35,643 nucleotides of DNA from a virus. Below, in pieces: positions 1-3,096 of this stretch. The stretch is taken from IMG/VR virus record IMGVR_UViG_3300043786_000688, positions 1 to 35,643 of that record; one strand, 5' to 3'. The number at the start of each line of letters is the position of its first letter. Position 1 is the stretch's first letter. The notes below the pieces were generated by a model that was not told the origin of the DNA, did no database searches, and saw only the letters and a list, made by a program, of their open reading frames with translations. Both the position numbers and the translations under genes were made by a program.

Positions 1-379
1 CCCCCAGCGCCGCCCGCAGCGCGCTAATTGCCGATGCCGTCTCCTGCACATCTCGATCAAGTGCGGCGTGCTTGTGCGGCCGGTATCCAGCCATTGCAGC
101 ATGGAACGCATCGGCTTCGGCTTTGACGTAGCAATAGCTCATCTCCAGCGCCTCCAGCGCCATCCGCATCGCTTCGCGGTGGTCGGACGGGCCGTTCAAC
201 GCGCACCAGTTCGTCGCCTGCTCGCCCGTGCCGCTGCTGCGGATGTACGGGCACCGCTGCTGCGCAAGCTCGGCGCGAAGCCGCTCGATTTCCTCGCACG
301 CGCGGCGCAGGATGTGGTCGGGCGCCACGTCCGCTAGGTGGTAGGCCTGGCGCAGGCGTTGCACGATGTCGTCGGTCAT
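1..379 (-). CDS. Conserved phage protein, 3' end cut off by window edge
   Basis: An open frame reads leftward off the window edge from ATG at 379, with 126 residues visible. The start is decided by an ATGA overlap with the stop of the upstream methyltransferase gene, which implies translational coupling. The N-terminal 40 residues are helical and charged (MTDDIVQRLRQAYHL...). A middle segment carries Cys and Trp (RCPYIRSS, NWCALNG) and is followed by another long helix (REAMRMALEALEMSYCYV). I do not recognise a functional family; small proteins of this style (two charged helices around a short Cys-containing insert) are common fillers of phage early operons. As the last visible gene of the left operon it is probably expressed early from pL. 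No function is assigned. Confidence 0.75.
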   Translation of the reverse strand, partial: MTDDIVQRLRQAYHLADVAPDHILRRACEEIERLRAELAQQRCPYIRSSGTGEQATNWCALNGPSDHREAMRMALEALEMSYCYVKAEADAFHAAMAGYRPHKHAALDRDVQETASAISALRAALG

Positions 380-1281
380 GCGTTCGACTCCATGATCGCG
401 CGCCCAATCACTTCGACCACTTGCGGTACAACTGCGTTGCCGAGAGCCTGCAGTCGGGGTCGGTCCAATCGGGCGGCAACCCCATCATCCACTCCACGAA
501 GCGCGGGTTCAGTCGTCCACTCGTCCCAGTCAAGTCCTGCATCGTCGCGTCCAAGTAGCCGCGCGAGAGGCGGTGCAAGTGCGACTTCGACCCGATCGGC
601 CCCGTGCCTTTCCACTCCGCGGCCCTCGGCGTCGGCAGCAGACGCCGAGGGCCGCTGGCTTTGGGATTCCCGCCCCTGCCCCCCCCGCCATCCCCGCGCG
701 CCCAGTCCGTCAGCGACAAGCCATGATGCGCGTTGCTGGTCGGCGTGTTTCTTGATCCCGATCCGTACGCGTCGCTTGCAACCGGCGTCGGCAGCAACGA
801 TCCAGACTCGGTCGCGTCGGTGAGGCGCACCAACGGCGGCAGCAGGTATGCAGTGCCACTCGACGTCATACCCGAGCGCGGCCAGGTCTCCGAGTACCTC
901 GCCATGCCCTCGACCAAGCAGAGCTGCGACGTTCTCCACGATGACGTGTCGCGGTCGAACGTCGCCAATAATGCGGGCGAACTCACGCCATAGTCCGCTG
1001 CGCTCGCCAGCAAGACCGGCCCCCTTGCCAGCGACGCTGATGTCCTGGCACGGGAATCCGCCGACGACGAGGTCGATGTGGTCGATTCCGTCGGCTCGCA
1101 GCCGGGCAGCGTCAAGGTCTCGGACATCTTCGTAGATCCTCACGCCGGGCCAGCGTACGGCCAGCAGTTGCCTGCACCACTCGTCGCGCTCGACGAACGC
1201 GACCGGAGCGTCGGCGACGCCGGCCCGCATCAAGCCAAGACTCATGCCGCCGATCCCGCTGAACAGATCCAGCACGTTCAC
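376..1281 (-). CDS. C5 cytosine-specific DNA methyltransferase
   Basis: This 301-aa protein is a SAM-dependent DNA (cytosine-5) methyltransferase. The family motifs appear in order: motif I LDLFSGIGG (residues 4-12, SAM binding), motif IV GGFPCQDIS (74-82) with catalytic Cys78, motif VI VENV (115-118), motif VIII around RRDRVW (155-160), and a C-terminal motif X-like LGNAVVPQ near residue 280. The target-recognition region between VIII and X is Arg/Ala/Gly rich with repeated ADA stretches. Length matches compact phage Dcm-like enzymes. The GTG start lies 2 nt after the stop of the SSB-like gene. No cognate restriction endonuclease is adjacent, so it is probably an orphan enzyme protecting phage DNA from host restriction. 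The same DNA is open in a second frame that also looks conserved (see 408-1127). Target site unknown. Confidence 0.95.
   Translation of the reverse strand: MNVLDLFSGIGGMSLGLMRAGVADAPVAFVERDEWCRQLLAVRWPGVRIYEDVRDLDAARLRADGIDHIDLVVGGFPCQDISVAGKGAGLAGERSGLWREFARIIGDVRPRHVIVENVAALLGRGHGEVLGDLAALGYDVEWHCIPAAAVGAPHRRDRVWIVAADAGCKRRVRIGIKKHADQQRASWLVADGLGARGWRGGQGRESQSQRPSASAADAEGRGVERHGADRVEVALAPPLARLLGRDDAGLDWDEWTTEPALRGVDDGVAARLDRPRLQALGNAVVPQVVEVIGRAIMESNA
408..1127 (-). CDS. Alternate-frame ORF inside the methyltransferase gene (possible overprinted gene)
   Basis: A 239-codon frame lies wholly inside the methyltransferase gene on the same strand, in another frame. It does not look like random shadow sequence. 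It carries LLPTP twice, a YSETWPRSGMTSSGTAYLLP stretch and, near its C-terminus, LNPRFVEWMMGLPPDWTD. These are hallmark strings of a family of phage/prophage hypothetical proteins and of the C-terminal region of another C5-methyltransferase subfamily. The LLPTP and ADA repeats are the same bases read one nucleotide apart. It may be translated as an overprinted gene, be a relic of a frameshift between methyltransferase subfamilies, or only be the conserved out-of-frame echo that databases have annotated. No clear ribosome site was identified. I cannot choose from one sequence. Confidence 0.3.
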   Translation of the reverse strand: MSETLTLPGCEPTESTTSTSSSADSRARTSASLARGPVLLASAADYGVSSPALLATFDRDTSSWRTSQLCLVEGMARYSETWPRSGMTSSGTAYLLPPLVRLTDATESGSLLPTPVASDAYGSGSRNTPTSNAHHGLSLTDWARGDGGGGRGGNPKASGPRRLLPTPRAAEWKGTGPIGSKSHLHRLSRGYLDATMQDLTGTSGRLNPRFVEWMMGLPPDWTDPDCRLSATQLYRKWSK

Positions 1282-1863: not shown

Positions 1864-2362
1864 GATGCCTCCATATCCGCCTGCTCACGAGCGCATACAA
1901 GGTCGTTCTCGGGATGCCGGTTTCTGCGCTCAGGTCGCACACCCGCTCTCCTTTTTGCGCGCGCTCCAACATTGAACGCATCGTCTGCTCGGAGTGCTTG
2001 TTGATTGGCACGGCTTCACCGCGACGACGGGTGCCGTGCCTTAACTGATCGCTCATGTTCCCCTTGCGGGTGTCGATCCGCAGGTTGTCGGCGCGGTTGT
2101 TTGTCCGGTTGCCATCGTTGTGGCAGACGTGCAGGTCGCCGGGGTCGCCGATGAAGGTGAGCGCCACGAGCCTGTGGACGGTGTACTCGACGCGCTTCGC
2201 ATCGCGGCACAGCGACACCTTGTAGTACCCGTTAGCCAGCAGCGTTGGTTTGAGAATCCGGCCCGCTGTTGTGCCCGGTGCCGCCGTGTCGCGCCGCATG
2301 CGGCCAAGCGTGCTGGCCGAATACTCGGGCCAGCCCGGAATCGCTCGCCATTCTTCGTTCAC
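1847..2362 (-). CDS. HNH homing-type endonuclease (NUMOD4-HNH)
   Basis: This 171-aa protein begins with a NUMOD4-like segment (EEWRAIPGWPEYSASTLGRM) that binds DNA in homing enzymes. An HNH nuclease core follows: HRLVALTF with first His at about residue 63, CHNDGNRTNN (80-89) and ADNLRI. The C-terminal 50 residues (KHSEQTMRSMLERAQKGE, then SAETGIPRTTLYALV) form a helix-turn-helix of the NUMOD1 type. The GTG start at 2362 overlaps the ERF stop (GTGA) and is preceded by AAGGTGG; an open frame continues further upstream, but those residues read as ERF shadow. It is a free-standing mobile nuclease inside the early operon, with no intron or intein seen around it. Confidence 0.88.
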   Translation of the reverse strand: MNEEWRAIPGWPEYSASTLGRMRRDTAAPGTTAGRILKPTLLANGYYKVSLCRDAKRVEYTVHRLVALTFIGDPGDLHVCHNDGNRTNNRADNLRIDTRKGNMSDQLRHGTRRRGEAVPINKHSEQTMRSMLERAQKGERVCDLSAETGIPRTTLYALVSRRIWRHLDNRG

Positions 2363-3096
2363 GCCGCCACCTTCGATTTCTCGGCGTTGGCATAGCCTGC
2401 GTACTCCTTGATCGCGGCCCGCACGGCCGAATGTTTGTTCAACATCTCCCACAACACCATCCGGTCCTCGCCCGTCACGCGGCTGGCAGCGCGGTGCAGT
2501 TCCCAGAAGCCGGCCGTGTCGCCGTCCTTGTCGAACTGCGTGACGGCAGCGGCGTGCAGCGCGATACAGGCGTCCGCAACGTCTCGGATGGCGCGAACCT
2601 TGTCGGCCTCTTCGGCGACGGCGCTACGGCCGTTCTGGCGGCTGCTAGCGACCTCGTGCGTCGTCGCGTCGGCGTCGTTGTCGCCTTCGGTCGGGATCGC
2701 GAAAGTCTGGATCGCCATATATTTGTACGCGGCGCTCATGGCCTTGTTCGTCGCCTTGTCGCCGCTGTCCATCGCCTCGCCCACGGTGCGGACGGTGTGC
2801 GCGCTTCCGTCGCGGGCCGACACGAGGTCGAACTCGACCTCCAGCACGACGTAGAACAGCGCGTTCCCGCGCGAGTTCGCGCGCTCGGTCACGGCCCGCG
2901 AGATGACGCGCGGCAGGATGCAGAGTTCGTGGTCGGCCAGCACCCGCGACAGCGCGTTCAGCACGTCATCGATGCCTCGGAACTTGAAGCCCTGCGCGTC
3001 GTTCTTGCGGTCTTTCGAGATGCCAGTCTTCGCCATTTCGCGCATTACCTGCGCTATCGCTGCATAGACGTGCTTCGACGTTGCAGTCGTGGTCAT
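2359..3096 (-). CDS. erf: ERF-family single-strand annealing recombinase
   Basis: The 245-aa product matches the ERF (essential recombination function) superfamily of phage single-strand annealing proteins. The signature run is in place: an N-terminal helix (VYAAIAQVMREMAKTG), FKFRGIDDVLNALSRVL, a beta-rich core, and the family hallmark GEAMDSGDKATNKAMSAAYK followed by FAIPTEGDNDADATTHEV. The remaining C-terminal third is helical and variable, as usual. ERF proteins form rings on ssDNA and promote RecA-independent annealing, often for circularisation of the incoming genome. ATG at 3096 has a strong AGGAGG seven bases upstream. Its operon partners include the SSB-like protein, with which it probably cooperates. 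Confidence 0.93.
   Translation of the reverse strand: MTTTATSKHVYAAIAQVMREMAKTGISKDRKNDAQGFKFRGIDDVLNALSRVLADHELCILPRVISRAVTERANSRGNALFYVVLEVEFDLVSARDGSAHTVRTVGEAMDSGDKATNKAMSAAYKYMAIQTFAIPTEGDNDADATTHEVASSRQNGRSAVAEEADKVRAIRDVADACIALHAAAVTQFDKDGDTAGFWELHRAASRVTGEDRMVLWEMLNKHSAVRAAIKEYAGYANAEKSKVAA

Follow-up and report, generated by a model that had tools for sequence, protein, structure and literature searches.

The locus described here raises the question of whether one stretch of a phage DNA methyltransferase gene encodes two proteins in two reading frames and, if so, what the second protein does. It lies in an IMG/VR virus record, 35,643 bases long, the whole of which was analyzed and is called the window below; the record encodes terminase, portal, and tail proteins. 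A preliminary description of the window had placed a methyltransferase gene at 376–1281 and, on the same strand, a second open frame of 239 codons at 408–1127, and these coordinates and contents held. The features of the locus, all on the minus strand, are as follows, with the basis for each assignment in brackets.

376–1281, minus strand: alpha frame, C5-cytosine DNA methyltransferase, 301 aa, GTG start (PF00145, E 1.2e-42; phrog_363, 1.6e-72)
408–1127, minus strand: beta frame, nested +1-frame ORF, 239 aa, ATG start, carrying an IX-like motif (phrog_1008, 1.8e-30)
1138–1141, minus strand: Shine-Dalgarno-like GAGG, 10 nt upstream of the beta ATG (consensus match only)
1246–1269, minus strand: alpha motif I, DLFSGIGG (sequence)
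1042–1059, minus strand: alpha motif IV including the catalytic Cys, GFPCQD (sequence)
928–939, minus strand: alpha motif VI, VENV (overlaps beta TSSWRTSQ, 924–947)
802–822, minus strand: alpha motif VIII, HRRDRVW (sequence)
421–441, minus strand: alpha motif X, GNAVVPQ (no duplicate in beta)
867–893, minus strand: beta conserved segment SETWPRSGM (conservation in relatives and sequence)
771–797, minus strand: beta LLPTPVASD (shares bases with alpha AADAGCK, offset by one nucleotide)
615–641, minus strand: beta LLPTPRAAE (shares bases with alpha AADAEGR, offset by one nucleotide)
462–512, minus strand: beta LNPRFVEWMMGLPPDWT (assigned, as the probable reading, to C5-methyltransferase motif IX)
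475–513, minus strand: alpha reading over the beta IX-like segment, TEPALRGVDDGVA (sequence)

The alpha match to PF00145 exceeded the curated cut-off, and with motif I, PCQ, and ENV in place, its membership in the C5-cytosine DNA methyltransferases was met. The beta ORF lies entirely within alpha, in the +1 frame, and its match to phrog_1008 extends across residues 40–225; the best-conserved segments of the beta family are SSWRTSQ, SETWPRSGMMRNG, the PTP repeats, and LNPxWVEWLMGFPxGWT. No match to the beta product was found in Pfam or NCBIfam, the beta family profile found no significant solved structure, and the structure model of beta was poor (pLDDT 60), giving no fold support. The statement in the preliminary description that the LLPTP repeats and the ADA repeats of the methyltransferase are the same bases read one nucleotide apart was borne out. 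Its further statement that the methyltransferase frame has all C5 motifs partly failed: motifs I, IV, VI, VIII, and X were present, motif IX was not clear there, and the IX-like sequence was located in the +1 frame. The methyltransferase gene is adjoined by genes for an SSB-like protein (1284–1556) and an Erf-like annealing protein (2359–3096), with a 2-nt gap between the end of the SSB-like gene and the start of alpha.

Dual coding of the methyltransferase gene

Codons were permuted among the synonymous positions of the window enzyme (1000 shuffles), leaving both protein and codon usage unchanged, and the +1 frame was scored with a profile built from relatives, the window excluded. The +1 frame of the window scored 232 bits, against 66.8±11.8 for the shuffles with a maximum of 106, and remained open for 243 codons, against a shuffle mean of 121; this open length was reached by only 6 of the 1000 shuffles. 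The +2 frame was unremarkable, its open length being reached by 848/1000. The comparison was extended to viral loci gathered with the first 100 methyltransferase residues only, a choice that avoids selection for the +1 frame. All but one of 60 such non-redundant loci (59/60) scored above all of their 100 shuffles, while none of the 20 enzymes used as controls, which have no +1 match, did so. The median +1 open length in these N-terminus-selected loci was 229 codons against 96 in shuffles, and nothing was seen in the +2 frame.

These data bear directly on the possibility that GC-rich DNA and codon bias alone produce the second frame. Long open shifted frames are indeed frequent in GC-rich genes, as the average open length of the window shuffles illustrates. 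Nevertheless, the observed profile score was never attained by shuffles, which refutes this explanation; further, the +1 frame is also open in loci with 43–50% GC, and the control enzymes showed nothing. We therefore leave it practically no room.

Synonymous constraint was examined at the fourfold-degenerate sites of alpha, where every change is a replacement in the +1 frame. The loci of a first scan had mostly been found via the +1 frame, an ascertainment bias, and the scan was therefore repeated with the loci selected by the methyltransferase N-terminus. In this set, fourfold-site identity was 0.27–0.29 in codons 1–60 and 0.34–0.40 in codons 61–100, rose to 0.42–0.76 for most of codons 101–280 (0.76 at 261–280), and was 0.32 at codons 281–300; control windows mostly gave 0.24–0.32, with a few small-sample exceptions. 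Ascertainment bias as the cause of the constraint was thus rejected, as the constraint persisted in the repeat, being weaker in codons 101–160. In codons 261–280, position 3 of alpha, which is position 2 of beta, was better conserved than position 1. In 82 close pairs, the synonymous difference was 0.36 within the overlap versus 0.60 outside it.

Raised fourfold identity could be explained by nucleotide conservation alone, for instance by RNA structure or recombination hot spots without any translation of the +1 frame. Against this reading, the +1 frame is open far beyond the shuffles and the +2 frame is not, the amino-acid patterns of the +1 frame are conserved (as its profile score indicates), and the third position of alpha is kept better than the first in codons 261–280, so that this alternative can be set aside almost entirely. 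Alpha and beta are thus dual coded under protein-level selection, a conclusion drawn from sequence alone and without expression data.

A Shine-Dalgarno-like site followed by a +1 ATG within codons 40–70 was present in 56 of 140 loci, where 16 were expected from shuffles, a 3.5-fold enrichment. From this enrichment and the GAGG located 10 nt before the window ATG, we infer that beta is probably initiated internally.

Motif IX and the proposed two-polypeptide enzyme

The C-terminal LNPRFVEWMMGLPPDW of beta is best read as methyltransferase motif IX, which we regard as probable, the match being short. Alignment with hhalign placed LNPxWVEWLMGFPxGWT on the canonical motif IX only weakly (probability 12–58%), and the phmmer domain for this match amounted to 6 bits. 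More informative were single-chain relatives (L128, L192, L215, and L255) in which an IX-like motif occurs in frame immediately upstream of motif X; L214 likewise has an in-frame LNPxWVExLMG, and its main frame stops early. The sequence of L128 aligned without gaps to M.HhaI across motifs IX and X (KLHPRECARVMGYPDSY..GNSVV), and its predicted structure model matched M.HhaI 12..327 with a Z of 26 and an rmsd of 2.6–2.7. Alpha may possibly retain a degenerate motif IX of its own, because the alpha family profile aligned its EPxVxRVADGVP with motif IX of M.HhaI.

We propose, as the likely interpretation, that the locus is a nested gene pair for a two-polypeptide (alpha-beta) C5 methyltransferase; this rests on analogy, and the assembly, the activity, and the need for beta are inferred. 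Frame 0 would encode the large subunit alpha, with the AdoMet site, the catalytic Cys, and motifs VI, VIII, and X, and internal initiation in the +1 frame at the ATG at 1127 would give the small subunit beta, whose C-terminus would supply motif IX, a part located in single-chain enzymes after the target-recognition region and before motif X. The two subunits would together form an active enzyme resembling M.EcoHK31I, which the phage would probably use to label its DNA and so escape host restriction.

M.EcoHK31I (YGGCCR) of Escherichia coli has motifs I–VIII and X in its large subunit and only motif IX in its small polypeptide (PMC3404938). The coding sequence of the small subunit reportedly lies within the large-subunit gene, in a different reading frame (Lee, Kam and Shaw 1995). 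On the subunit reading, this anatomy, with IX alone in the small polypeptide and X in the large one, matches that of alpha and beta. A small polypeptide carrying motif IX is met by beta, within the limits of the short match, and its location in another frame inside the large gene is met as well; in alpha, motifs I, IV, VI, VIII, and X were found and IX remained unclear, apart from the EPxVxRVADGVP segment. The window version differs in being phage-borne and in that beta has the LLPTP repeats and an LNPxFVEWMMG form of motif IX. No restriction enzyme gene was recognized among the window neighbors examined. The alpha and beta of M.EcoHK31I have the accession X82231 (PMC6174562); their sequence was not recovered from 5,426 E. 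coli genomes with four DNA probes, nor could it be recognized in the 12 genomes with a +1 relative among 369 that were searched, all of one class; those of the 12 that were read by frame mostly had the relative overlapping a methyltransferase.

Three other entries were compared. M.AquI (CYCGRG) is also a two-polypeptide C5 methyltransferase, as proposed for the window enzyme, and has motifs I–VIII in one polypeptide and both IX and X in the small subunit (PMC3404938). The window fails this last point, having motif X in alpha, whereas split pairs of actinophages (e.g., L003) do match it. The hidden HNH endonuclease of the ShiLan type is a mobile insertion in a phage methylase (PMC11855218) and shares with the window a second frame within a phage methylase gene. 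Beta, however, has no Pfam HNH match and overlaps conserved enzyme motifs with no insertion, and hence does not qualify. Finally, phrog_1008, named “DNA methyltransferase”, is the family of the +1 products, including beta of the window; its name is silent on the fact that its members lie out of frame over another methyltransferase ORF.

Spread in phages and rearranged relatives

Scanning viral contigs for the +1 protein gave 258 related stretches, and in essentially all of the 80 loci fetched, the relative lay within a methyltransferase ORF, in the +1 frame and at the same place; in one locus (L056), the main frame was broken. Public phage records with a +1 relative numbered 164, mostly from actinophages, and in several of those examined the relative was annotated beside the first methylase as a second “DNA methylase” or as a hypothetical protein. 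In actinophages, frame 0 ends soon past motif VIII, and the +1 gene has the PTP repeats, IX, and X (split methyltransferases: L003, 1233–2328; L006, 1035–1980; L008, 1158–2307; L010, 1257–2307). The +1 gene is therefore plainly part of the enzyme there, and these C-terminal parts also match phrog_1008. The record of one of these phages, phiBT1 (L010), remarks that its methylase may be inactive. In a tree of the N-terminal parts, the nested and split types were interleaved, with 17 changes and many weak forks, and the direction of change was not resolved; some of the “split” labels depend on a missed motif X pattern.

The actinophage arrangement raises the possibility that programmed ribosomal frameshifting from alpha joins an N-terminal part of alpha to a C-terminal part of beta. 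With alpha ending shortly past motif VIII there, a shift would yield one complete enzyme, and some loci have a +1 frame that stays open upstream nearly to the alpha start. However, the +1 constraint spans motifs V–VIII, which any fusion would read in frame 0; +1 ATGs with Shine-Dalgarno-like sites are enriched as described above; and a fusion in the window would be without motif X. We consider frameshifting very improbable and retain internal initiation of beta as the preferred reading.

The preliminary description had offered two alternatives, that both frames are translated (overprinting) or that phage methyltransferase subfamilies have exchanged frames, and both held. Overprinting was supported by the synonymous constraint in loci not chosen by the +1 frame, the excess over shuffles, and the Shine-Dalgarno-like sites before +1 ATGs. 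Frame exchange was supported by the occurrence of LNPxWVExLMG in the methyltransferase frame of L128, L192, L215, L255, and L214 and by the split actinophage enzyme, with IX and X both in the +1 gene. The proposal was to be considered refuted if the overlap showed no excess synonymous constraint and all database relatives lay out of frame in intact methyltransferase genes, with none standing alone. Strong excess constraint was found, and the proposal is not refuted on that count; the second condition does apply to almost all relatives, which are out of frame within methyltransferase genes. The reading of the +1 motif as motif IX, which we judge the best one, and the precedent of M.EcoHK31I had both been missed.

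Several loci depart from the common arrangement. In L202 (2489–3328) and L207 (885–1706), the +1 ORF extends across almost the entire methyltransferase, and its IX-like sequence is a different one, RWLSGPESLRLQGFPPDW in L202; no such IX-like sequence was found in frame 0 of either. In L192 (2499–3842), motif IX (LNPDWVEVLMGY) is in frame 0, and the +1 frame contains many PTP repeats and stays open through 448 codons. The frames are permuted in L175 (2187–2819), with motif X (GNSIVPQ) in +1 and an LNP-like motif in +2. In L099 (2285–3046), an E. coli prophage methyltransferase, both frames stop at nearly one place.

Extended dual coding on a single strand is rare within conserved enzymes; here about 200 codons are common to two conserved proteins in many phage contigs. 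The dual coding accounts for odd phage annotations, namely pairs of “DNA methylase” ORFs that overlap, LLPTP-repeat proteins labeled hypothetical, and phrog_1008. No description of the overlap in phages was found in the literature searched, a limited collection whose silence proves little. One bacterial precedent, M.EcoHK31I, is already known; what goes beyond it is the spread in phages, the re-splitting and re-fusion of frames, and a second nested family. An old biochemical curiosity becomes a probable large family with its frames split, nested, and re-fused, in which the origin and maintenance of overprinting may be traced on a tree. There is also a practical warning, as cloning or recoding a phage C5 methyltransferase as one ORF may give an inactive enzyme.

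A second nested family

Some methyltransferases without the first +1 family (L174, L195, L218, and L238) have another +1 ORF, which matches phrog_16143. A scan with this second family found 367 relatives, and all 89 loci fetched from two scans (L276–L364) had it within a methyltransferase ORF, in the +1 frame (e.g., L279, 1399–1974). Among 38 non-redundant genes of this type, fourfold identity was 0.74–0.89 in codons 141–200 and 0.44–0.63 elsewhere in most of the +1 ORF, and about 0.32–0.40 beyond the overlap, including motifs IX and X; 37 of the 38 exceeded all shuffles in +1 open length. The set was gathered via the +1 frame, and the effect size is perhaps biased upward; such bias probably does little to explain the open-length result against shuffles. 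Several enzymes of this type (L279, L290, L291, and L303) retain the canonical motif IX in frame 0, and supplying IX is therefore not the sole reason for a +1 gene.

This bears on the alternative that beta is a real overprinted product but a separate protein, such as a regulator, a chaperone, or an anti-restriction or host-directed factor, with alpha working alone. In its favor, the phrog_16143 family is similarly constrained inside methyltransferases, several with a frame-0 IX; the bulk of beta, SSWRTSQ and SETWPRSGM included, lies outside motif IX and is without known relatives beyond PHROGs; and a segment of alpha can itself be aligned with motif IX. On the other hand, the end of beta resembles IX, and single-chain relatives have an in-frame IX instead; the actinophage +1 gene also holds motif X and is hence an enzyme part there; and M.EcoHK31I provides a precedent. 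On balance, we regard a separate protein as unlikely and prefer the two-polypeptide enzyme.

A bolder reading, towards which we lean with limited confidence, is that phage C5 methyltransferases are widely and generally accompanied by a +1 nested gene, in either an IX-carrying form (phrog_1008, as in the window) or a phrog_16143 form, the latter inside methyltransferases of which several retain IX and would be complete as single chains. If this is true, the nested protein does more than donate motif IX, and phage genomes hold hundreds of unrecognized two-protein genes.

Homology of the two +1 families, as given by hhalign at 97%, was considered and rejected, since synonymous shuffles and controls without a +1 gene gave 96–97%; the similarity is an artefact, because the methyltransferase frame is common to both. 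When shifted frames of homologous genes are compared by profile, even synonymous shuffles yield high probabilities, and a control of this kind is required.
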